Positions 4,001-29,800 of a stretch of DNA of 42,241 bases are shown here, piece by piece. Within the stretch, counting starts at the first letter, position 1; each line of letters starts with the position of its first letter. The notes under the pieces were generated by a model, which searched no databases, was not told the origin of the DNA, and saw only the letters and a program-made list of their open reading frames with translations. Source of the DNA: an uncultured Spartobacteria bacterium (GTDB lineage Bacteria; Verrucomicrobiota; Verrucomicrobiia; Chthoniobacterales; Chthoniobacteraceae). Both the position numbers and the translations under genes were made by a program. The stretch is from positions 1-42,241 of the forward strand of contig CAIYUV010000139.1 in assembly GCA_903929475.1 (NCBI GenBank), given 5' to 3'.

Positions 4001-6736
4001 ATGGCGGCGTGGGTGATCTTGTTGCTGGCGGGCAGTGTGTGCGGGGCGGAGGGGGTGAAGCCGGATGTGGGGCTTGTGGCGTTGGGGCAGTATAATTGCA
4101 CGGTGTGTCATGCGGCGTCGGAGAAGCAGGCGGCGTGGATTTTGCCGAAGGCGGCTCCTTCGCTAACGGGGCTGGAGAAAAGGGTGAATCCCGACTGGTT
4201 GCGGAAGTGGCTGGCTGCACCGCACGCGACGATGCCGGGCGCGACGATGCCGGATTTACTGCACGGGCTGCCGGATGCGGAGCGGGCGAAGGCGTTGGAT
4301 GAGCTGACGCATTTCCTGCTCTCGAATGGGAAGCCGGAGTTTCGCCGCGTGCCGCCGGATCGGGCGGCGGTGGCGCGGGGGGAGAGTCTGTATCACCGCA
4401 TCGGTTGTGTGGCGTGTCATCAGCCGCAGAAGGGGGGTGCGCCGGATTCGGTGCCGTCGGCTCCGCTGCCGAAAATGGAGGAGAAATGGTCATTCGATGC
4501 GTTGAAGGAATTTCTGCTCAAGCCACACACGATACGGCCATCGGGCCGAATGCCGGGGATGGACCTGACGGATGCGGAGGCTTTCGACCTCACGCATTTT
4601 CTCCTGCGCGAGACGCGCATCTTTTCGCCGATGGAGGCGACGGTCTGGCACGAGCGTGTGCGTTCGCTGGCGGAACTGGACACGACTGCGCCGGTGAGCA
4701 CGACGCCGGTGAAAAACTTTTCGCTCGCAGTGCCGGGTGTGAACCGCCGCGTGAGCATTCGCTTCGCTGGCTGGCTGCGCGTGGACAAGGCTGGCGACTA
4801 CACATTTCACATCGCCGCAGATGGTGCATCGCGCATCGCGCTCGATGGAAAATGGACGGAGGACGAAGACTGCTGGGAGCGCGAAAGCACGAAGCTGGAC
4901 GCAACGCATCACCTCGCCGAAGGCTGGCATGAATTGAAGGTGGACTTCGTGAGGCGCGGTGGAAATACGCCGAAGCTGAATGTGGAATGGGAGGGGCCGG
5001 GCGTGCCGCGCGGGGAGATTGCGACCGAGCGGCTGCGCGCGGAACGGGACTTGGAGCCGACGCTGGAACCTGTGCCGTTTGTCGTGGACAATGCAAAGGC
5101 GGAAAAAGGGCGCGCTCGTTTTGCGGTGCTGAACTGCGCAGCGTGCCACGAGTCGAAGGCTCCCGCGAATCCATTGCCCGCTCTCGCCGCGCTGGTCGCC
5201 ACGCGCGGATGTCTGGCGGAAAAGCCCGCGATGAATGTTCCGAATTTCCATCTTACGCCAGCGCAGCGTGAAGGATTGCGTGCATCTCTCGCGATGATGA
5301 ATCGCGCTAACCTTGCTGCGCCTTCATCCGCGCAACGCGTCGCGCATACGATGGCGTCGTTTAATTGCTACGCGTGCCATTCGCGCGACGGCGTGGGCGG
5401 TGTGCCGCGCGAGCGTGACGGCTACTTTACCTCCAACGTGGACGATCTCGGCGACGAGGGCCGCCTCCCGCCGACGCTCGACGGGGTGGGGGATAAGCTC
5501 CGACCGGAGTGGCTGGCGAAGGTGCTCGCGGAGGGCGCAGGCGTGCGACCGTATCTTAATACACGGATGCCGCAATTTGCGCACTGGCGTTATCTGCCGG
5601 ACCTTGCTTTTGCTAACAGTTCAACGCCGTCGCCGAGCCAGAAGCAGCTAGAGCCCCTGTTTTATTTGTTCATCGAACTCGACCGGCACGCCCAGCCCAT
5701 CAAACCCGCGACCGACGAGCGCGATGTGCTCCTCGACGCCGGGCGCAAGCTGACTGGGACGGACGGGCTCTCGTGCATTGCGTGTCATCGTTTCAACAAA
5801 CAACCCGCGCACGCTTTGCAGGTGCTCGATCTCATCAGCACGCCGGGGCGGTTGAATGAAGACTGGTTCCGCCAGTTTCTCCGCGACCCGAATCGCTTTC
5901 ATCCCGGCACGCGGATGCCTGCGCTCTGGCCCGGCGGGCGCAGTGCGTTTCCTACCTTGCTGGATGGCGATACGGACCGGCAACACGCGGCGCTGTGGGC
6001 GTATTTTTCCGAAGGCGAACGCGCGAAATTTCCAGAAGGGTTGAGTCGGAAAAACATGGAACTCGTGGTTGGTGGCGAGACGGTGGTGTATCGTGGAAAG
6101 CTGTGGGAGGCGGGCTTCCGCGCCATCGCCGCAGGCTATCCCGGCGGGTTGAACTCGGCGTTCGATGCGGAGGAAATGCGGCTATCGCTGCTGTGGCGCG
6201 GGCGCTTCCTCGATGCTTCGCCGCACTGGAGCGTGCAGGGCATGGCATCCATCCGCCCGCTCGGCTCGGAGGTCGTCGTTTTCCCGCACGGACCCGCGCT
6301 CGCGGTGCTCGCCGATGCGAACGCGCCGTGGCCGACGGAATCGAGCAAGGCAACGGGGATGAAGTTTCGCGGCACACAGCTCGATGCGCAGAATCGCCCG
6401 ACGTTTCTTTACTCATTCCGCGATTTGAGCGTGGAGGATGTCATGGTTCCGATTAGCGACAACAGTCGGACAGGGCTTCGGCGCGTGGTGAAATTCAGCG
6501 GCACGCTCCCGGTAGGTTTGCATTTCCGCGTGGCGGTGGGTCGGTTCGCGACGGTGCCGGGAAACACATGGGCTCTCGGCGGCGAGACTTCACTGACCAT
6601 GCAAGTAATGGACGTGCCCGGAGCGTTCCTGCGCGGGAAAGGCGACAAACAAGAACTGCTCCTGCCCGTGCCGCGCGAGCCACTTGCTGGCGAAAAGGAA
6701 CCGAGGCTGGTGATAGATTACTGGTTTCAGAAATAA
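4001..6736 (+). CDS. Secreted multi-haem cytochrome c protein with internal PA14 domain
   Basis: A 911-residue exported protein, start chosen at MAAWVILLLAGSVCG, a clean signal peptide; starts 22 and 52 codons upstream lack one. Five c-type haem sites are visible: CTVCH (33-37), CVACH (136-140), CAACH (379-383), CYACH (456-460) and CIACH (592-596). Met-Pro pairs such as GRMPGM, NTRMPQF and GTRMPAL are likely axial ligands. Between the second and third haems, about residues 245-345, lies a PA14-like beta-sandwich (RFAGWLRVDKAGDYTFHIAA, HHLAEGWHELKVDF), a carbohydrate-binding module family. The region after about 680 has no haem and resembles no domain I can name. The layout is typical of PVC extracytoplasmic oxidation systems. 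The next gene starts 3 bp later and probably supplies the dehydrogenase partner. The 222-bp region upstream holds no other gene. Confidence 0.9.
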   Translation: MAAWVILLLAGSVCGAEGVKPDVGLVALGQYNCTVCHAASEKQAAWILPKAAPSLTGLEKRVNPDWLRKWLAAPHATMPGATMPDLLHGLPDAERAKALDELTHFLLSNGKPEFRRVPPDRAAVARGESLYHRIGCVACHQPQKGGAPDSVPSAPLPKMEEKWSFDALKEFLLKPHTIRPSGRMPGMDLTDAEAFDLTHFLLRETRIFSPMEATVWHERVRSLAELDTTAPVSTTPVKNFSLAVPGVNRRVSIRFAGWLRVDKAGDYTFHIAADGASRIALDGKWTEDEDCWERESTKLDATHHLAEGWHELKVDFVRRGGNTPKLNVEWEGPGVPRGEIATERLRAERDLEPTLEPVPFVVDNAKAEKGRARFAVLNCAACHESKAPANPLPALAALVATRGCLAEKPAMNVPNFHLTPAQREGLRASLAMMNRANLAAPSSAQRVAHTMASFNCYACHSRDGVGGVPRERDGYFTSNVDDLGDEGRLPPTLDGVGDKLRPEWLAKVLAEGAGVRPYLNTRMPQFAHWRYLPDLAFANSSTPSPSQKQLEPLFYLFIELDRHAQPIKPATDERDVLLDAGRKLTGTDGLSCIACHRFNKQPAHALQVLDLISTPGRLNEDWFRQFLRDPNRFHPGTRMPALWPGGRSAFPTLLDGDTDRQHAALWAYFSEGERAKFPEGLSRKNMELVVGGETVVYRGKLWEAGFRAIAAGYPGGLNSAFDAEEMRLSLLWRGRFLDASPHWSVQGMASIRPLGSEVVVFPHGPALAVLADANAPWPTESSKATGMKFRGTQLDAQNRPTFLYSFRDLSVEDVMVPISDNSRTGLRRVVKFSGTLPVGLHFRVAVGRFATVPGNTWALGGETSLTMQVMDVPGAFLRGKGDKQELLLPVPREPLAGEKEPRLVIDYWFQK

Positions 6737-18583: not shown

Positions 18584-18647
18584 TGGATGCAGAGGCTTTC
18601 AATCTTAACTCAAAGGGGGGCATATTGGGTGCTAGTCACTGCGCACG

Positions 18648-19292
18648 ATGAAAGCCCGACTTCTCACATTCTGTCTCGTTGTCTCGACGATGTCCGCCGT
18701 TTCAGCGCGCGCGCAGGCGGTGATCGAGGGAAAGGTGGAATTGCCGAAGGCGCGCTCCGCGCCGGTGGTGAGCAAGCGCTACGAAATCGTGAGCAAGGGC
18801 GGGGTGCTGGCGACGGACCCGCCGACTGCGGTGGTGTATCTGGAGGGGACTTTCCCGAAAGGCGCTGCCCCGGCGACGGCGAAGATGGCGCAGAAGGATT
18901 TGAATTTTGTGACGCCGCTGCTGCCGGTGCAGGTGGGGACGAAGGTGGAGTTCCCGAACGAGGACGACACGTATCACAACATCTTTTCGTATTCGCCCGC
19001 GAAGCGTTTTGATCTCGGTCGCTACCGGCCGGAGGAGCGCCCGATTCCCTCGCAGGTTTTCGACACGGCGGGGATGGTGACTTTGCACTGCGAAATCCAC
19101 GAGCACATGCGGGGGATTATTCTGGTGTTGGACACGCCGCATTTCGTGCGGAGCGACACGGAGGGAAAATACCGTCTCGCGGGGCTGCCGCCGGGGCACT
19201 ACACGCTGAAGGCGTGGGTGAATAGCAAGACGACGCTGGTGCGCGAGGTGGACTTGAAGGCAGGGGCGACGCTGCACGTGGATTTCCCGTGA
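18648..19292 (+). CDS. Periplasmic cupredoxin-like protein with carboxypeptidase-regulatory-like tail
   Basis: A 214-residue exported protein (signal peptide ending near SARAQA). Residues about 85-162 form a plastocyanin-like domain with a full set of type 1 copper ligands: His110 in DDTYHNIFS, then Cys148, His151 and Met154 in LHCEIHEHM. The last ~50 residues (SDTEGKYRLAGLPPGHYTLK) are a CarboxypepD_reg-like beta-sandwich. Similar proteins are often labelled methylamine-utilisation protein or plastocyanin. The stop overlaps the GTG start of the histidine kinase gene (GTGA), so they are translationally coupled. It may deliver a redox or copper signal to the kinase sensor domain, or serve as an electron carrier; this is inference. 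Confidence 0.85.
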   Translation: MKARLLTFCLVVSTMSAVSARAQAVIEGKVELPKARSAPVVSKRYEIVSKGGVLATDPPTAVVYLEGTFPKGAAPATAKMAQKDLNFVTPLLPVQVGTKVEFPNEDDTYHNIFSYSPAKRFDLGRYRPEERPIPSQVFDTAGMVTLHCEIHEHMRGIILVLDTPHFVRSDTEGKYRLAGLPPGHYTLKAWVNSKTTLVREVDLKAGATLHVDFP

Positions 19293-21553
19293 ACGCGCCT
19301 CTCAAACAGCGGGCGACGAGTGCGCGCAGATTGCGTGTGAGGCTGCTGATGGGGATGATGCTGGTGGTCTCCGCCATCACGGCGGCGGGTTTTTTTCTCT
19401 CGCAGCGCAGTGTGGAAAGTGGTGCGCAGCAGAGCTTGCAGCAGCGGTTCCAGTCGGAGTTTGCGAATCTACTCGGCGTGCAGGAGGCGCACCGGGCGAT
19501 GATTGCAGAACGCTGTCGCGCATTCGCCAGTGCAGTGCGGACAAGGGCGGCGTTTGAGAGCACTGAGGATATCGATCAAAAGCTCATTGAGGACCTCTAC
19601 GTGAGTGCAGGGCTCGACCTCCGCGACCTTTTGAGTGGTAACGATGATGCCGCAAATGCCAGCGCGCTTCATGCAACTTTCGTTCGCTTCATTGACAGGC
19701 ACGACAAGGTGCTCGCGCCGCCTCAGAGTCTGAAAGCAGAACCTAGCCCAGCGCCGACCGAGAAGGAGCTAGCGATGGCTGTAAGTGCTGTGGAAAAAGC
19801 CCCTGCTTTCTTTGCTTTCAGCGCGGATGGCGGGCGGGGGCGTATTGACGAAATCATCTCTACGCCGATTCTGAGCACCGAGGATGGAGATGTCATTGGA
19901 ACGATGCTGCTCGGTTTTATGCCCGCAGGTGTCAGTAAGTTATTCGCCGACACGCAAACAAGGAGCGGCATTTGGATGGATGGACGTCTTCACCTGCTGT
20001 CCGTGGGTGTGGAGACTCGCAGTGAACTCGGTGAGAGCATCGGGCGGGCGGTCGGCGGAGCGGGCAGGGAGGAGGGAAGTCTCACGGTGGCGGTGGGCGG
20101 TGCGCCGCACTTGCTGATCTACAAGCTGCTGAATCCCGGCTCGCGTTTCCCTCGCGCCTATCAAGTGTCGCTTTACCCGCTCACGGAATCGCTGGCCAGA
20201 TTGCGGCGGCTGCGCTGGCAGATTGTCGGCGCTGGCGTGTTGCTGCTGCTTGCGGCGTTGATTGCTAGCCACTTCATTTCATCGCGCCTGTCGCGGCCGG
20301 TGGAGACGCTCGAAGTGGTGTCGGCGGAGAATTTCGCGCAGCGTGAACGTGCGGAGGCGGCGCTGGAAATGACGAGCGACGAACTGCGCGTGCGCAACGC
20401 GGATTTGCTGGCGGCGCTCGCGGAGTTGAAGTCCACGCAACAGCAAATCATCCAGCAGGAGCGCCTGCGTGCGTTGGGGCAGATGGCCAGCGGCATCGCG
20501 CATGATTTTAACAACGCGCTCGTGCCGATCCTTGGTTTTTGCGAACTGCTGCAGCTCAGCCCCGACATACTCGCCGACAAGAAAAAGTCCGCGACTTATT
20601 TGGAGACAATCCGCATCGCCGCTCAGGACGCCGCGAGTGTGGTCGGGCGTCTGCGGGAATTTTACCGGGCCAACGAAGAGCACGAGAAATTTTCGCCGGT
20701 GGATCTTTCAAAGCTCGTGGAGCAGGCAATCAATTTGACAAAGCCCAAGTGGAAAGATCAGGCACAGGCCGCAGGTGCGACGGTGCGGGTGGTGCCGGAG
20801 CTTTCCACCGTGCCGCCCATCGCGGGAGAGGAGCCGGCGCTTCGCGAACTGCTCACGAATTTGATCTTCAATGCCGTGGATGCGATGCCCGACGGCGGCA
20901 TCATCACCATCCGCACGCGGCGCGACGGTGGGCGCGTGGTGCTGGAAGTCGCGGACACCGGAACCGGCATGTCCGAGGAAGTTCGCCGCCGCTGCCTGGA
21001 GCCGTTCTTTTCCACGAAGGGTGAGCGCGGCACCGGGCTCGGCCTTTCGATGGTGTTTGGCATCGTGCAGCGGCACGGCGGGGAAATTGATATTCGCAGC
21101 GCGGTGGGGAAGGGGACGACATTCGTGATCACGTTTCCGCCGCAAGCTGCCGGTGAAGTTGCCTCCAAGGATGCCGCAACGCCGCTTGCCAATCGCGCGC
21201 TGAACGTGCTCGTTGTGGACGACGAAGAACTCGTGCGCGACCTGCTCACTGCCGCGCTCACGAAGGACGGCCATCATGTAGAACTCGCGGAGCAGGGCGT
21301 GGATGGATTGCGGCGTTTCATGGCGGGGAAATTCGACCTCGTCGTGACGGACAAGGCGATGCCCGGCATGAGCGGCGACCAGATGGCTACCGCGATCAAA
21401 CAAGTGTCGCCGAAAACCCCCATCATCCTCCTCACGGGCTTCGGCCAATTTCTCGACAAGGAGAAGATTCCCAATGTAGATGTGCTCGCCAGCAAGCCCA
21501 TCGGCATCGTCGCTCTGCGCGAAGCCATCACCGCTGCACTCAAGGCCGCATGA
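19289..21553 (+). CDS. Hybrid sensor histidine kinase with C-terminal receiver
   Basis: A 754-residue inner-membrane kinase with a GTG start overlapping the cupredoxin stop. TM1 (about 19-37) and TM2 (about 311-331) enclose a periplasmic sensor of ~270 residues, probably double-Cache-like (TPILSTEDGDVIGTMLLGFM). A coiled coil follows TM2. HisKA has the acceptor His405 in GIAHDFNNALVPILGF. HATPase_c has the N box NLIFNAVDAMPDGG, G1 ADTGTGMS, the F box EPFFSTK and G2 GTGLGLSMVFG. The receiver (about 638-754) has VVDDEE, acceptor Asp688 in VTDKAMPGMSGD, the Thr of LLTGFGQ and Lys736 in ASKPIG. With no DNA-binding output in the operon, phosphate probably goes to an unlinked phosphotransfer protein or regulator. 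Confidence 0.95.
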   Translation: MNAPLKQRATSARRLRVRLLMGMMLVVSAITAAGFFLSQRSVESGAQQSLQQRFQSEFANLLGVQEAHRAMIAERCRAFASAVRTRAAFESTEDIDQKLIEDLYVSAGLDLRDLLSGNDDAANASALHATFVRFIDRHDKVLAPPQSLKAEPSPAPTEKELAMAVSAVEKAPAFFAFSADGGRGRIDEIISTPILSTEDGDVIGTMLLGFMPAGVSKLFADTQTRSGIWMDGRLHLLSVGVETRSELGESIGRAVGGAGREEGSLTVAVGGAPHLLIYKLLNPGSRFPRAYQVSLYPLTESLARLRRLRWQIVGAGVLLLLAALIASHFISSRLSRPVETLEVVSAENFAQRERAEAALEMTSDELRVRNADLLAALAELKSTQQQIIQQERLRALGQMASGIAHDFNNALVPILGFCELLQLSPDILADKKKSATYLETIRIAAQDAASVVGRLREFYRANEEHEKFSPVDLSKLVEQAINLTKPKWKDQAQAAGATVRVVPELSTVPPIAGEEPALRELLTNLIFNAVDAMPDGGIITIRTRRDGGRVVLEVADTGTGMSEEVRRRCLEPFFSTKGERGTGLGLSMVFGIVQRHGGEIDIRSAVGKGTTFVITFPPQAAGEVASKDAATPLANRALNVLVVDDEELVRDLLTAALTKDGHHVELAEQGVDGLRRFMAGKFDLVVTDKAMPGMSGDQMATAIKQVSPKTPIILLTGFGQFLDKEKIPNVDVLASKPIGIVALREAITAALKAA

Positions 21554-22804
21554 ATGAATAAGATCATCACCCTCGCCAGCCTCATGTTCACTGCGTTCGC
21601 AGTCACCGCTCCGGCGGAGGACTGGCTCGAACGCCTCAACGAAAACCTCACCGTCACTGCGCTCGACGGTGACATCCGCCTGCGCTTGAGCGGCACACTC
21701 GACTTGGAAGCCTACCACGTGGACAGGCCCGCACCGGGGCTCATCTACACGGACCACGATTTCCTTTTTAATCCGCGCCTCACCCTTTTCGTGGACGCCC
21801 AATTCGGCCCGCACGTCTATGGCTTCGTCCAGTCACGCGTGGATCGCGGATTCGATCCCTCGGAGATGAATGCCCGGATGCGCCTCGACGAATACGCTCT
21901 GCGCATCACCCCGTGGGACGACGGGAGATTCAATCTGCAAATCGGCAAGTTCGCCACCATCGTCGGCAACTGGACCAAGCGGCACGACTCGTGGAGCAAC
22001 CCCTTCATCACCGCACCCGGGCCTTACGAAAATCTCACCGGCATCTGGGACAGCTACGCGCCCGGAGATGCGGATACCCTCTACGACTGGGCCCACGTAT
22101 ACCCCGGCGAGAGCGCTGCCGAAGTGTATGCCGACAAATTCCAGCGCAATCCCATCATCTGGGGCCCCAGCTACTCCACCGGCATCTCCATCTCCGGCAA
22201 GATCGGAATGCTCGAATACGCGGCGGAGATGAAAAACTCAGCCCTCGCCTCGCGTCCCAAGTCTTGGGAAATCGGCGAAGTGGACATGGCCCACCCCACC
22301 TTCAGCGGGCGGCTCGGTTTGCGCCCCAACCCCATGTGGAACGTCGGCGTCTCCCTCAGCGCCGGGCCGTATCTCTTGGACAGCGCGCAGCCAGACCTCC
22401 TTCCCGGCCAGCGCATCGGCGACTACCGCGAATGGGTGCTCGCGCAGGACGTTTCCTTCGAGTGGCACCACCTCCAGCTTTGGGCGGAATTTTTCGAGAC
22501 CCGCTTTGAAGTCCCCAGCCTCGGCCATGTGGACACCTTCGCCTACTACCTCGAGGCCAAATACAAAATCACCCCGCAGCTCTTCGGCGCCCTCCGCTGG
22601 AACCAGCAATTCTTCGGCAACCTCCGCGACGACCTCGGCAACCCCATGCCGTGGGGGCGCGACATCTGGCGCGTGGACATGGCCCTCGGCTACCGCTTCA
22701 CCGCCAACACGCAGATGAAACTGCAATACAGCTTCCAGCATGAAGAACTGGCGCTGCACAACATCACCAACATGCTCGCCGCGCAATTCACCCTGCGGTT
22801 TTAG
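21554..22804 (+). CDS. Outer-membrane porin-like beta-barrel
   Basis: A 416-residue protein with a signal peptide (IITLASLMFTAFAVTAPAE). The rest has long alternating strands typical of a 14-18-strand porin (GDIRLRLSGTLDLEAYHVD, HVYGFVQSRVDRG, TQMKLQYSFQHEELAL) and ends in MLAAQFTLRF with the C-terminal Phe recognised by the Bam machinery. Loop segments rich in Trp, Asp and Tyr (GNWTKRHDSWSNPF, IWDSYAPGDADTLYDW) may line a selective pore. It begins immediately after the kinase stop with no gap, so it is part of the cupredoxin-kinase operon. The substrate is unknown. Confidence 0.85.
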   Translation: MNKIITLASLMFTAFAVTAPAEDWLERLNENLTVTALDGDIRLRLSGTLDLEAYHVDRPAPGLIYTDHDFLFNPRLTLFVDAQFGPHVYGFVQSRVDRGFDPSEMNARMRLDEYALRITPWDDGRFNLQIGKFATIVGNWTKRHDSWSNPFITAPGPYENLTGIWDSYAPGDADTLYDWAHVYPGESAAEVYADKFQRNPIIWGPSYSTGISISGKIGMLEYAAEMKNSALASRPKSWEIGEVDMAHPTFSGRLGLRPNPMWNVGVSLSAGPYLLDSAQPDLLPGQRIGDYREWVLAQDVSFEWHHLQLWAEFFETRFEVPSLGHVDTFAYYLEAKYKITPQLFGALRWNQQFFGNLRDDLGNPMPWGRDIWRVDMALGYRFTANTQMKLQYSFQHEELALHNITNMLAAQFTLRF

Positions 22805-22840
22805 CGCCCAGCCGGTTGTTCGTAAAAAGCCCCAAACCGA

Positions 22841-23212
22841 ATGACAAACACTCCCAAGCAGCCCACCGCCAAAAGCCGCGCGTTTCATCGAAAAGCATTC
22901 CTTCATCGCTACCTCCGCGCCCTCGGTCTTTCCGCCAGCGTCGTCAGCGTCTCGCTCGGCATCGGCATGCTCGGCTACCACTTCATCGCCGGATTAAACT
23001 GGGTGGATTCACTCCTCAACGCCTCCATGATCCTCACCGGCATGGGCCCCGTGAACGTATTGAACACCGACGCCGCCAAAATCTTCGCCTCCGCCTACGC
23101 CATCTTCTCCGGCGTCATCTTCATCAGCGCCACCGGCATCCTGCTCTCCCCAGTCTTCCACCGCGTCCTGCACCGCTTCCACATCGAGGAAAAGATTGAC
23201 GCCAATGACTAA
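22841..23212 (+). CDS. Small two-helix membrane protein, Ion_trans_2 (pore-loop channel)-like
   Basis: A 123-residue protein with TM1 (about 28-50, LGLSASVVSVSLGIGMLGYH), a short pore-like segment (SLLNASMILTGMGPVN) and TM2 (about 84-105, FASAYAIFSGVIFISATGIL). The helix-pore-helix order matches two-TM potassium-channel-like subunits, but the filter reads TGMGP instead of TVGYG, so potassium selectivity is doubtful. It follows the porin by 36 bp and closes the operon. Its last seven codons (KIDAND and stop) fall in the register of the 21-bp tandem array that follows, so the present C-terminus may have been set by the repeat. Reading through the TAA would add 83 codons. Confidence 0.75.
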   Translation: MTNTPKQPTAKSRAFHRKAFLHRYLRALGLSASVVSVSLGIGMLGYHFIAGLNWVDSLLNASMILTGMGPVNVLNTDAAKIFASAYAIFSGVIFISATGILLSPVFHRVLHRFHIEEKIDAND

Positions 23213-23505
23213 ACCTTTGGCGTCAATGGCCCAAGTATTAAAGCCAAAGACGCAACCATTGGAGCCAATGACGCAACCTTTGAACTCAAAGACCGAACCT
23301 TTGAAATCAGAGACGCAATCTTTGAAATCAGGGACGTAACCTTTGAGCTCAAAGACGCAATCTTTGAAATCAGAGACCGAATCTTTGAAGTCAGAGACTC
23401 AACCTTTGAATTCAAAGACCGAATCTTTGACGTCAGAAACGCAATCTTTGACGTCAGAGATTGAATCTTTGAAGTTAGAGAATGAATCTTTGAACATCGA
23501 AAATG
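23191..23505. repeat. 21-bp tandem repeat array, 15 units, encoding heptads
   Basis: Fifteen consecutive 21-bp units, best consensus AATCTTTGAAATCAGAGAC plus two variable bases. Units begin every 21 bases with no insertions or deletions (23191, 23212, 23233, 23254, 23275 and so on to 23485). The first unit overlaps the end of the channel-like gene and contains its stop codon. The early units are the most diverged and the middle ones nearly identical. Because 21 is seven codons, every frame encodes heptads: in the channel frame TFEIRDA/IFEIRDR-type units run to a TGA at 23462-23464; another plus frame gives SLKSETE-type units (ATG at 23343); the minus strand gives SLISKIA-type units (ATG at 23415). 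No ribosome-binding site precedes either ATG. Confidence 0.9.
23196..23226 (+). other. Hairpin straddling the stop codon of the channel-like gene
   Basis: TTGACGCCAA (23196-23205) and TTGGCGTCAA (23217-23226) are exact reverse complements around an 11-base loop that contains the TAA stop. No T-run follows, so it is not a classical terminator. It could stabilise the mRNA end or affect termination at the stop codon. It lies within the first two units of the tandem array. Confidence 0.45.
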
Positions 23506-23560
23506 CCCCGTTTTCTCTGAAGACCGCGTTTTTCACCCCCGCGCCCCCATCGCGCTCTGG

Positions 23561-23704
23561 AAATAGCCCAGCGTTTTAACGCTGGGAACCATGCTCCACC
23601 TAGACCACGAGTCCCGTCAGGGACGAAAGAACGGTTCTGCCGTCCCTGCCGGGACTTTGCTCCTTTGGGGATGCGCCCCCCAGCACTGAAGTGCTGGGCT
23701 ATTT
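23561..23704. repeat. Intergenic palindromic element with 12-bp terminal inverted repeats (copy A)
   Basis: The element is bounded by AAATAGCCCAGC (23561-23572) and its exact complement GCTGGGCTATTT (23693-23704). Inside are hairpins at both ends (CCCAGCGTTTTAACGCTGGG; CAGCACTGAAGTGCTG) and a central stem CAGGGACG/CGTCCCTG (23618-23648). The central part is homologous to 33981-34043 on the opposite strand. There is no open reading frame, so it is a non-autonomous repeat of REP or MITE type. Confidence 0.65.
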
Positions 23705-23794
23705 TCAAGGCGCAAACTCTTTCGCCTCTGGGATTGAATCTGGAAGGTCAGAAATCCCGGCGGCGGCCTGCGCGGAGCACCAAGGGTGCGAACC

Positions 23795-23995: not shown

Positions 23996-24712
23996 TTACT
24001 GCGGCGGGTTCTTGGTGCCGTCGGGGAAGGTGATGTCGGTCTTCGGCAGGGCGGCGCGCAGTTCGCGCAGCGCGGCGGCGGGGATTTTGTCGCAGCCGCT
24101 GAGGTTGAGCCATTGCAGTTTGTTGAGGCCCTTGAGTCCGTCCACGTTTTGCAGCGCGTCGCAGCTCCAGAGGCCGATCTCTTGCAGGGCGGTGAGGCCT
24201 TTGAGGGCGTCCACGTTTTGCAGCGCGGCGCAGCCGGTGAGGTCGAGATATTGAAGTCCGGCGAGGCCCTTGAGGCCGTCCACATTTTGCAGCGCGCGGC
24301 AGAAGTTGAGGTAGAGCGATTGCAATGCGGAGAGGCCCTTGATGGCGTCCACGTTTGCGTCCTCACATCCGGAAGCACCCAATACCGTAGGATTGAGACG
24401 GTGGAGCATTTCACGGTAGCGGCCAAGCTCGGGGACTCCACCCATCTCAAGCGCGCGGGGGTGCGCGCCCCATGTCTCCTTTTTGAGCGCATTGTGCCAG
24501 TCCTGCCGGATGAGGCTGAGGGTGTCATCGCACTTCCAAACGAACCCCGCCTCCTTCGCTTCGTGGACGGCGTTGTTGTAAGCGTTGATTTTCCACATCT
24601 GCCAGCCTATGCCGCCGAGGAAGAGGACGATGAGCACGCACCAAAGCTTCTTCCCAAAGCTGCTCTCCCTTTTCGTGGTGTGCGCGTCTTTCACGCCCGT
24701 ATTCTGCCCCAC
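23996..24712 (-). CDS. Membrane-anchored leucine-rich-repeat protein
   Basis: A 238-residue protein with one N-terminal membrane segment (residues about 23-40, KLWCVLIVLFLGGIGWQMWK) and no cleavable signal. A helical linker is followed by four consecutive 23-residue leucine-rich repeats of the cysteine-containing type, e.g. LQNVDGLKGLAGLQYLDLTG then CAA. The repeats are nearly identical and recent at DNA level (69-bp period). A short C-terminal cap follows (AALRELRAALPKTDITFPDG). LRRs of this sort bind proteins; the partner is unknown. It is the third gene of a minus-strand unit, 21 bp after the DMFase-like gene. The nearest downstream sequence is the nested inverted repeat. Confidence 0.8.
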   Translation of the reverse strand: MGQNTGVKDAHTTKRESSFGKKLWCVLIVLFLGGIGWQMWKINAYNNAVHEAKEAGFVWKCDDTLSLIRQDWHNALKKETWGAHPRALEMGGVPELGRYREMLHRLNPTVLGASGCEDANVDAIKGLSALQSLYLNFCRALQNVDGLKGLAGLQYLDLTGCAALQNVDALKGLTALQEIGLWSCDALQNVDGLKGLNKLQWLNLSGCDKIPAAALRELRAALPKTDITFPDGTKNPPQ

Positions 24713-26245: not shown

Positions 26246-29200
26246 TTATTTCTTCGCCGGTTCGTTGGCGAGGTTGAGGAGGTATTGCTCGACCATCGCG
26301 CCGTATTCCTGCGGGTATTTTTCGCCGAGCGATTGCTGGATTGCTTCGCGCTCGCGAGGAGGAAGCCCGAGGAAACCGGCCTTTTTAATCGCGGCCTGAC
26401 GCGCCTCGCGCTGCACCGCTTCGGGGTCTCCGGGCTTGTAGCTTTCGGCACCTTCCGAAGGACCGTTGCCGGATTTGGAATTCGGCCCGGAGCCTTTGCC
26501 CTGGCCTTTTCCCTGCCCCTTTCCTTTTCCCTCGCCCTGACCTTGTCCTTCACCCTGGCCTTCGCCTTGTCCCTGACCTTGCCCTTGCCCTTGCCCTTGC
26601 CCTTGGCCTTGGCCTTGGCCTTGGCCTTGGCCTTGGCCGGGCTGTTGCGAAATGCCGGCTTGTTGCGCGGCGGCCATGCCTGCTGCTTGCGCGAGCGATT
26701 GCGCGGCTTGCTGGGCGGATTGTTGCGCGGCGGCGGTCTGTCCGCTTTGCGCCTGCGCTGCTGCGTCGGAGAGTTGTTGCGCGGCCTGCTGCGCCGCTTC
26801 CTGCGCGGAAGGTGACTGCGCGCCTTGCTCGGCTGCGGCTTGCGCGGCCTCCTGCGCGGCTTGCGCGAGTTGCTGTGCGGCCTGTTGCATTTCCTGCGCG
26901 GCTTGCGCTGCGTTTTGCTGGGCGGCCTGTGCGGCGGCGTTGGCCATTTGCTGCGCTTGCTGTGCCTGCTGCGCTGCCTGCTGTGCGGCTTGCGCGGCTT
27001 CGCCTGCTTGCTGGGCTGCTTGTTGATTTGCGGCCTGCTCGGCTGGCTGTCCCGCTTGCGCTGCTTGTTGCGCGCCTTGCTCGGCAGCTTGCTGCGCCGC
27101 TTGCGCGGCCTGCGCGGCTTGTTGCGCAGCTTGTGCCGCCTGCCCCGCTTGCTGCGCTGCTTGTTGACCTGCCTGCGCGGGCTGTTCGCCTTGCGCCATT
27201 TGTTGAGCGGCTTGGGCGGCCTGCTGTGCGGCCTGCGCGGCTTGCGCCGCCTGCTGTGCAGCTTGTCCGGCTTGTTGCGCGGCCTGCGGATTGTTTGCCT
27301 GCTGCGCTTGTTGCTGTGCGTTCTGCGCCGCCTGCGCGGCTTGCTGTGCGGCAGCCGCTGCTTGTTGCGCGGCCTGTGCGGCATTTTGCGCGGCTTGCTG
27401 TCCCATTTGCTGAGCGGCCTTTTCGAGATTCGCCTGCGCCTGCTGCACCTGCGCCTGCGCTGCTGCGAGATCGGCGGCGGCTTTTGCGGCGTCCACGGCG
27501 CTGGCTTCCTCGCCGAGCTTCTGCTGGGCGTCGGCGAGTTTGGCGGTCATCGCGCGCTGTGCGTTGAAGAGTTCTTTCAGCGCGCGTTCCTCGGCGGCGC
27601 GGGCCTGCGGGCCGGCCTTCGCTTCGAGTTGTGAACGTGCGGCGCCCATCTCCGTGGCGGCGTCGGTGAGCGGTTGCGCGGCGATGGCGAGATCGGCTGC
27701 GAGCGATTGCTTCAGCGCCTCCGTCTGCTGCTGTGTCGTCGCCTGCTGCGGTGCGAGCGCGTTGAGTTCATCCGGCTTTTTCGTCGCTGTTGCCTTGATA
27801 GTCGCCAATCCAATCGCCTGCTCGCTCGCGATGATCTTCGCCAAATCCGCGAGCGATTTCTCCGCCTGCTGCATCTGCTGCTGCGCGGCCTGCGCCTGCG
27901 CGAGTTCCTCTCCGATTTGCTTCACGGCTTCCTCGAAATTCTTCGCCGCCTCCGCCGCCTCTTGCTTTCCCTGCTGCGCGTTGTTCGCTTGCAGCGCCTG
28001 ATCGCCTTGCTTCGCATCGGTGGCTGCGGCCTGCATTGATTTCTCCGCTTTAGGAGCGAGTTGCGCAGCGCGCTCAGCCATCTGCGCGGCACGTTTGGAA
28101 ATGTCGGCCTGCATCGCCTTGTCGGGCGCGGCTGCTCTTGCGATTTCGTTTTCCTGCTTCGCCATTTCCTTGGCGACTTGTTGCAGGCGGTCGAGGTCTT
28201 TGATCTTGTCGCCGCTGTTGCCCGCGAGCACCTCGGCTTCGTCGGCTCGCTTGTGTAACTCCGCATGAGCTGCGCGCAATTTCTCCGCCGCCGCCAACTG
28301 CTGTGTCTGCGCCTGAGAAGCGTTCGCATCCTGCATCGCGCTGCGCGCCTCCTGCATCTTCGCGTTGGCATCGCGAAGTGCGTCGGATGCCAGTTTCGTA
28401 TCGGCGAGGTCCTGGCCAAGCGCGTTGGTTTTTACTGCGAGTTCGCCCTGCTGGTCTTCGAGCTTCGCGAGCTGCGCGCCTTTGTCGCGGTTCTCATTTT
28501 CAAATCGCGCACGCAGCTCCTTGCTCGCGTGCATCTGCTCCGGCGTGAGTTTGCGGAATTTTCCCTCCAGCGTTTTGTTCGGATCCTTCTCCGCGATTTT
28601 TTCTGCGAGCCACTTGTCGAAATCCTGTGCCGTCTTCTGCTTGCCCGTGTTCGCCACGAGCAAATCCTGATCGCGGATCATCTGCGCGACCTCTCGCTCC
28701 GCCTTACGCAATGCCTCGACTCCGCGCTCGCGCGGCGCGATCTGACGGGCCACGTTGCGCAGTTCGTCACGGCTCGTCTTCTCGTCCGTCACCGCTTTGA
28801 AAACCTGCCCCGCCTTCAGCGCATCCGTAGCACTGCTCGCCACCGGCTCCACGCGCTGGAGTTGCTGCGCGCCTGCTTTGAACTTCTCCGCCACGCCCGC
28901 ATTCTCCGGGTCCGCCGCAAACTTCTCGATTCGCGCACGGGCCATCTTCACCTCGTCCGCAATCGCCGTTTGCTCGCCCCGCTGCGCTTCGAGCTGCGCC
29001 TGCATCATCGCTTCGAAATTCTCCGGCTTTGTCGCACCTGCCATCCGCCCCAGCTCGATCCCGTTTTGCAAATTGCGCGACTGACGATCTCCCAAATCAT
29101 TCAGCGTCCGCGCAATTTCCTGCGCCTGCTGCTCGCGCGCATGGTCGGAAAGAATGCGCTTGATCGAAACGACGATTTGTTTTTGCGCCGAAAAAGCATC

Positions 29201-29527
29201 CGCCACCGTCTTCGCCGCCGCGCCCGGGTCCTTCACTGCCCGCGCCTGCTGGAGCAAATCCACCACCTGCTTCATCTCCGCCACGCTCAATTTATCCAGC
29301 GACCCGCGCAGCCGCTTCACCGTCGCCACTTCCTCGCCGCCGAGATTATTCCGCTCATACTCTGCCGTCATCTCATCCAGCGCCGACACGAGCGCCTTCG
29401 CATCACTTTGAATCTGCTCCTGCTTCACCTCGCTCTCCCGCAAGCGTTCCCCCGTCTGTGCTGCAAAAATAGAAGGCGTTGCCGCGAGGAAAATCTGACA
29501 GGTGAGCAGCAGAGATAGCGTTTTCAT
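26246..29527 (-). CDS. Large secreted Ala/Gln-rich coiled-coil protein with Gly-Gln tract
   Basis: A 1093-residue protein starting MKTLSLLLTCQIFLAATPSI, a signal peptide cleaved near FAAQ. Residues about 25-700 are charged helices, probably coiled coil (EQIQSDAKALVSALDEMTAE). Residues about 700-960 are an extreme AQQAAQAAQ low-complexity tract. About 960-990 are GQ dipeptides with GEGKGKGQGKG continuing to about residue 1020. The last ~60 residues return to normal composition with AGFLGLPPREREAIQQSLGE and KYPQEYGAMVEQYLLNLAN, an end I associate with other PVC secreted proteins. The 73 in-frame codons upstream of this ATG do not look like protein. The function is unknown; a fibrous surface or matrix role is possible. 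It leads the unit containing the DMFase-like and LRR genes. Confidence 0.85.
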   Translation of the reverse strand: MKTLSLLLTCQIFLAATPSIFAAQTGERLRESEVKQEQIQSDAKALVSALDEMTAEYERNNLGGEEVATVKRLRGSLDKLSVAEMKQVVDLLQQARAVKDPGAAAKTVADAFSAQKQIVVSIKRILSDHAREQQAQEIARTLNDLGDRQSRNLQNGIELGRMAGATKPENFEAMMQAQLEAQRGEQTAIADEVKMARARIEKFAADPENAGVAEKFKAGAQQLQRVEPVASSATDALKAGQVFKAVTDEKTSRDELRNVARQIAPRERGVEALRKAEREVAQMIRDQDLLVANTGKQKTAQDFDKWLAEKIAEKDPNKTLEGKFRKLTPEQMHASKELRARFENENRDKGAQLAKLEDQQGELAVKTNALGQDLADTKLASDALRDANAKMQEARSAMQDANASQAQTQQLAAAEKLRAAHAELHKRADEAEVLAGNSGDKIKDLDRLQQVAKEMAKQENEIARAAAPDKAMQADISKRAAQMAERAAQLAPKAEKSMQAAATDAKQGDQALQANNAQQGKQEAAEAAKNFEEAVKQIGEELAQAQAAQQQMQQAEKSLADLAKIIASEQAIGLATIKATATKKPDELNALAPQQATTQQQTEALKQSLAADLAIAAQPLTDAATEMGAARSQLEAKAGPQARAAEERALKELFNAQRAMTAKLADAQQKLGEEASAVDAAKAAADLAAAQAQVQQAQANLEKAAQQMGQQAAQNAAQAAQQAAAAAQQAAQAAQNAQQQAQQANNPQAAQQAGQAAQQAAQAAQAAQQAAQAAQQMAQGEQPAQAGQQAAQQAGQAAQAAQQAAQAAQAAQQAAEQGAQQAAQAGQPAEQAANQQAAQQAGEAAQAAQQAAQQAQQAQQMANAAAQAAQQNAAQAAQEMQQAAQQLAQAAQEAAQAAAEQGAQSPSAQEAAQQAAQQLSDAAAQAQSGQTAAAQQSAQQAAQSLAQAAGMAAAQQAGISQQPGQGQGQGQGQGQGQGQGQGQGQGQGEGQGEGQGQGEGKGKGQGKGQGKGSGPNSKSGNGPSEGAESYKPGDPEAVQREARQAAIKKAGFLGLPPREREAIQQSLGEKYPQEYGAMVEQYLLNLANEPAKK

Positions 29528-29800
29528 TGGGCGGAGTAGTTGTGAATGACCGCCAGAGTAGTCCCTCCGCAGCCAATTGTCTTTGGAGAAAACGCACGAT
29601 TTCAAAGCACACAAAGTCACACCAAAACACCGTCTCAACTCAACTGCAGCTTCGCTCTCACAGCACTGATTGGCGGCGAAGGTGTGTCTCCGGGCTTTGC
29701 TTCCCGTCGGGTGTCGAGGTTGATCGTGCGCGCTTTCAAATGGCATTCACAGTTCGACATGGTCGCGTCATTCCGTCATCCGTCACCCGACATTTTCACC
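29528..29800. promoter_or_regulatory. Divergent intergenic region between the Ala/Gln-rich gene and fur-family gene
   Basis: These 273 bases separate two divergent genes and must hold both promoters. I see no convincing coding region: the in-frame extensions of both genes lack start context and have unlikely composition. There is no clear Fur-box 19-mer, no strong hairpin and no repeat shared with other parts of the window. Confidence 0.4.

Follow-up and report, generated by a model that had tools for sequence, protein, structure and literature searches.

Introduction

Ordinary bacterial minisatellites, or VNTRs, consist of tandem repeats whose number changes by whole units, and minisatellite families in bacteria are normally defined by a common sequence. 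The closest described system that we found to the array analysed here is BrickBuilt, a minisatellite/MITE of Porphyromonas gingivalis, which is dispersed and intergenic with 19 copies in strain ATCC 33277, and in which 23-nt repeats follow each other head-to-tail without spacers, with a conserved leader and tail (PMC4596501). A GTAG or CGTC tag marks one end of most REP elements, which have a common family sequence (PMC3733652, PMC3116915). For 21-bp arrays in Verrucomicrobia, the open-licence literature held nothing relevant.

Here, we analysed a 42,241-nt stretch of DNA from an uncultured Spartobacteria bacterium (contig CAIYUV010000139.1, hereafter the window), in which an array of 21-bp units directly follows a gene for a small membrane protein. 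The original prediction had seen in this array a heptad-encoding repeat grown out of the end of the gene. We argue that it is probably one copy of a non-coding, dispersed and polar minisatellite family of this Chthoniobacteraceae genus.

Results

Structure of the array and its surroundings

The 15 units at exact 21-bp spacing were confirmed by lag identity and by TRF. Over the array, identity was 0.745 at lag 21 and 0.75 at lags 42 and 63, and reached at most 0.42 at any other lag between 5 and 69, while TRF reported period 21, 12.1 copies and 0% indels at 23241-23494. The unit is composed of a 7-bp spacer, ACGCAAY, and a 14-bp dyad such as CTTTGAACTCAAAG; the left-most units are of the CATTGG..CCAATG type, which is also present in other arrays. 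A pattern spanning two units matched five times in the array and never in 100 dinucleotide shuffles of the window. Degenerate units carry on in register beyond 23505 to about 23545, which corrects the earlier array end. A CRISPR was ruled out, as the units adjoin each other directly and the 7-bp spacer recurs along with the rest of the unit. The features of the locus are collected in Table 1.

Table 1. Coordinates of the array and neighbouring features in the window
Feature	Position	Strand	Basis or remark
Small channel-like membrane protein gene, 123 aa	22841..23212	+	TAA at 23210-23212
15 units, 21-bp minisatellite	23191..23505	+	Lag-21 identity, TRF, dyad test
83-codon open stretch past TAA	23213..23461	+	Judged non-coding: no start codon, no codon-position bias, no Pfam match
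Conserved terminal segment T2 (GAAAATGCCCCGTTTTCTCTGAAGACCGCG...)	23499..23545	+	In 21-bp register with the array; C273 and C41 have it too, 3' of their 21-bp arrays
Element bounded by inverted Acido-Lenti-1-like hairpins	23549..23718	not assigned	Rfam RF01687 matches
Leucine-rich-repeat protein gene, far side of array	23996..24712	-	Pfam LRR_4, LRR_8

The word channel is a putative label for the upstream gene, because its product has no Pfam match; a search of 37 further genomes found relatives of the protein in 8. Beside the other end of the array, two sub-gathering matches to Rfam RF01687, at 23549-23586 (-) and 23679-23718 (+), bound a 170-bp element. A 94% identical copy of it adjoins T2 on contig C24 of a same-genus sister species (G007), which served as the nearest relative for comparisons, and the element is probably a separate REP-like repeat. 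Within the leucine-rich-repeat gene, 69-bp repeats at 24091-24356 code for the leucine-rich repeats, with paralogues in G007 beside the channel gene and at C24. Farther on, an ORF of 1166 aa (26246-29746, minus strand) contains hexanucleotide and 21-bp repeats at 26492-26638 and 26835-27244.

The open frame after the TAA

As had been noted, the frame of the channel-like gene stays open for 83 codons beyond the TAA and spells TFEIRD-type heptads, and one minus-strand frame of the array is likewise open. This openness is a weak fact: the unit length is divisible by 3, so that a stop-free unit yields a stop-free array. The open stretch contains no start codon, its entropy is flat across the codon positions (0.53, 0.50 and 0.61) and it has no Pfam match, which, together with orthologues that lack the array, speaks against the suggested de novo coiled coil and C-terminal or readthrough extension. 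Selection on the reading frame is also not what fixes the unit length, since unrelated intergenic arrays in both orientations have the same 21-bp unit. The presence of such arrays at other, non-genic sites of the genome, which the original prediction had itself named as refuting evidence, contradicts the coding view and supports a further option of the original prediction, a selfish or dispersed minisatellite.

Origin of the window copy

In other members of the genus and of the order, the coding sequence of the orthologous gene ends in a stop, with no array behind it. The DNA of the window and of G007 is 93% identical over 18617-23194, where homology stops within the last codons of the gene; the two proteins are 92% identical and end in HIEEKIDAND* (window) and HIEEKES* (G007). 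Thus, the array did not grow from the gene, because the identity with the sister species ends inside the last codons. The first unit does contain the final codons and the stop of the gene, as predicted, in that the array edge supplies IDAND and the TAA. On this comparison the array was probably gained in the lineage of the window genome, and the simplest reading would be that its edge now gives the gene its final codons and stop. The T2 end of the array and the leucine-rich-repeat gene match C24 of G007, where T2 joins a different array. The intergenic DNA of G007 does not align with that of the window, and a precise empty site is not definable.

A dispersed family with a 21-bp unit

Is the array confined to this locus? 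The window genome (G000) is a 4.5-Mb draft of 295 contigs and, like the other genomes compared, appears to be a draft MAG; its contigs C8, C10 and C15 (L170, L172 and L177) are all N in the supplied data. A direct search, as originally proposed, found further arrays of this sequence type, in G000 at C228 and at C273 and in G007 at C35. In a period spectrum of 832 kb of G000, a non-random set of contigs, 20 TRF rows (3.5 or more copies, no more than 3% indels) had period 21, and none of the other periods between 15 and 30 exceeded 4 rows. A few of the period-21 rows lie in coding sequence (26835-27244 of the window and probably L242). Extrapolated, the roughly 19 distinct loci in 832 kb amount to roughly 100 arrays per genome. 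Most arrays have units unrelated in sequence, and the unit length is 21 bp throughout. Two further genomes of the genus, G001 and G003, also have period-21 arrays in the parts sampled.

A scan of all genomes with the two-unit pattern gave mostly single chance matches and few clear arrays outside the genus, among them a Treponema array of similar skeleton and one Verrucomicrobia array. The same scan of viral sequences gave 16 single matches, and the three that came within the best 40 had a lag-21 identity of just 0.51-0.61. In a Treponema sp. MAG (L030), an array of about 23 units of 21 bp occupies about 5694-6190 of the reverse strand, its skeleton near that of the window array (ACGCAAGCGTTGGTGCCAGAG). 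Homologous genes in two species, with starts MNKDYIPS (L005, 546-1214) and MTKDYIPN (L244, 6713-7381), lie just downstream of 21-bp arrays whose units differ between the two species.

Dyad symmetry of the units

Units tend to consist of a 14-bp palindrome and a 7-bp spacer. We assessed this with a column-permutation null, taking the best of 42 centres in both data and null, with array ends set by hand. For the window array, the Watson-Crick fraction of the dyad was 0.79 against 0.56 in the null (p=0.005). When the window array and its three closest arrays were combined, 0.77 of the pairing round one centre was Watson-Crick over 31 units, and one pair changed from T-A to A-T in concert. Among 38 arrays, the dyad reached p<0.05 in 20 (Fisher p 2.7e-18), with a 2-nt centre in 18 of the 20, and the other 18 were without a significant single dyad in the same test. 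Covariation within arrays, counted over pairs varying on both sides, gave 292 Watson-Crick cells against 248.3 (sd 8.1) in shuffles, with 50 double-change cells; the significance of this excess is optimistic because the units are related by duplication. Mismatches in oriented arrays were about equally frequent, with 61 G.T and 72 A.C. Together with the compensatory changes, these similar counts point to a symmetry constrained at the level of DNA and not of RNA.

A shared terminal motif on one side

Many arrays end one-sidedly in a conserved motif, either T1 (ACAGAGAAGAACGCC) or, as in the window array, T2 (TTTTCTCTGAAGACCGC). Different arrays share flanking 10-mers from ACAGAGAAGA, which invariably lie to one and the same side of the array, and an inverted terminal partner at the other end was absent among the shared flank 10-mers of 29 arrays. 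With at most one mismatch, the 15-mer T1 has 13 matches in G000 compared with none for a reversed-pattern control. Among the matches given with loci (9 of the 13 in G000), T1 stood directly 3' of an array with a best upstream period of 21 in 9/9 cases in G000, 3/3 in G007 and 1/1 in G005. Single matches in G001, G004 and G006, of the same genus, and all matches in other genera were not beside arrays; T1 is not exclusive to arrays, and a few non-array matches are expected by chance at one mismatch. Aligned by eye over GAAGAMCGCC, T1 and T2 appear to be related.

Turnover between sister species

An orthologous array on C22 of G000 and C48 of G007 (L289/L286) differs between the two species by a single unit and by a block of three units. 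Copy number thus changed in whole units at this array; relatives have no counterpart of the window copy. Beside rlmN, the arrays of G000 and G007 have unrelated units and opposite polarity, i.e. a slot replacement. The AT-rich array by rlmN in G000 (C235, L313, 190-440) flips its orientation midway, its halves being approximately reverse complements. Some arrays are located at synteny breaks, and errors in the assembly of the draft MAGs could account for part of these joins; arrays of this kind are nevertheless real, since an orthologous array is present in two assemblies.

Discussion

We propose that each element of the family consists of head-to-tail 21-bp units, many closing on one side with a conserved terminal unit. 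Growth may be due to slippage or to unequal exchange, each step spanning two helical turns. The dyad could be kept up by hairpin-templated (quasi-palindrome) correction at replication or, alternatively, by dimeric proteins bound on one helix face. New copies may arise through recombination with arrays already present or through copying from them, and the location of some arrays at synteny breaks would then be explained. For arrays with unrelated units, common descent is suggested by the shared terminal motif and the unit length only. It is conceivable, if rather improbable, that a genus-specific process or protein imposes the 21-bp, two-turn palindromic format and leaves the letters free, such that unrelated intergenic sequences were repeatedly made into arrays of the same architecture. 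If true, this would be a satellite system that inherits a format rather than a sequence.

Could the arrays instead serve as binding sites? A dimeric protein would then coat one face of the DNA through palindromes spaced exactly two helical turns apart, and would thereby organise the chromosome or exert local control. Two turns of 10.5 bp make 21 bp, and the 14-bp dyads with compensatory change, as well as the missing bias of G.T over A.C, are what double-stranded DNA sites would show. However, the core letters differ wholly between arrays and would be unreadable by one sequence-specific protein, about half of the arrays are without a clear dyad, and slots turn over between sister species. We regard this explanation as rather unlikely, though the strongest of the alternatives.

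A true MITE of the BrickBuilt kind, with a minisatellite inside and mobilised by a transposase in trans, is somewhat less plausible and in our view unlikely. It would account for dispersed, intergenic elements with a conserved tail, and one array of G007 lies beside a gene start that by eye reads like a putative IS630-type transposase; the terminal motif, however, was found on one array side only, with no inverted partner among the shared flank 10-mers. We give still less credit to a role as RNA, i.e. repeated hairpins in 3' untranslated regions. Although the window array directly follows a gene and its units could pair, the mismatch counts do not show the tolerance of G-U pairs that an RNA would display, no Rfam family covers the array except for miRNA matches far below gathering, and the 2-nt centre leaves too little room for the loop of an RNA stem. 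Finally, a coiled-coil extension of the channel-like protein through TAA readthrough or phase variation is highly improbable, because the open codons with their regular TFEIRDA heptads, and a unit divisible by 3 that changes as a whole, are set against a stretch with no start codon, no codon-position signal and no Pfam match, array-free orthologues, and other arrays that, in both orientations, encode unrelated peptides or contain stops.

A polar, non-coding minisatellite family, our preferred reading, would offer a testable model for the growth and divergence of satellites in bacteria: from one sister species to the other the sequence turns over, but the unit length, the recurring dyad and the terminal unit are retained. 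It also carries a warning, as such arrays give rise to many spurious heptad-repeat genes and are a probable cause of broken assemblies.

How does the family compare with known systems? With bacterial VNTRs it has in common head-to-tail repeats in the range of about 10-60 bp (a 21-bp period without indels) and a copy number that changed by whole units at the L289/L286 array, but ordinary VNTRs differ from an exact, genome-wide length quantum of 21 bp across unrelated sequences with a common terminal motif. Like REPs and REPINs (PMC3733652, PMC3116915), it places many short palindromes per genome outside genes; here, in contrast, the units stand in long 21-bp tandem arrays and are without a constant tag. 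Indeed, by inspection, no constant GTAG or CGTC was present at the palindrome foot in the dyad-aligned consensus units of the 38 arrays. BrickBuilt resembles the family in its dispersed, intergenic, head-to-tail short repeats with a conserved flank, but is built from a single 23-nt sequence and bears inverted repeats at its termini (PMC4596501), whereas here the unit is 21 bp long, its letters vary by array, a dyad recurs and conservation was seen at one end only.
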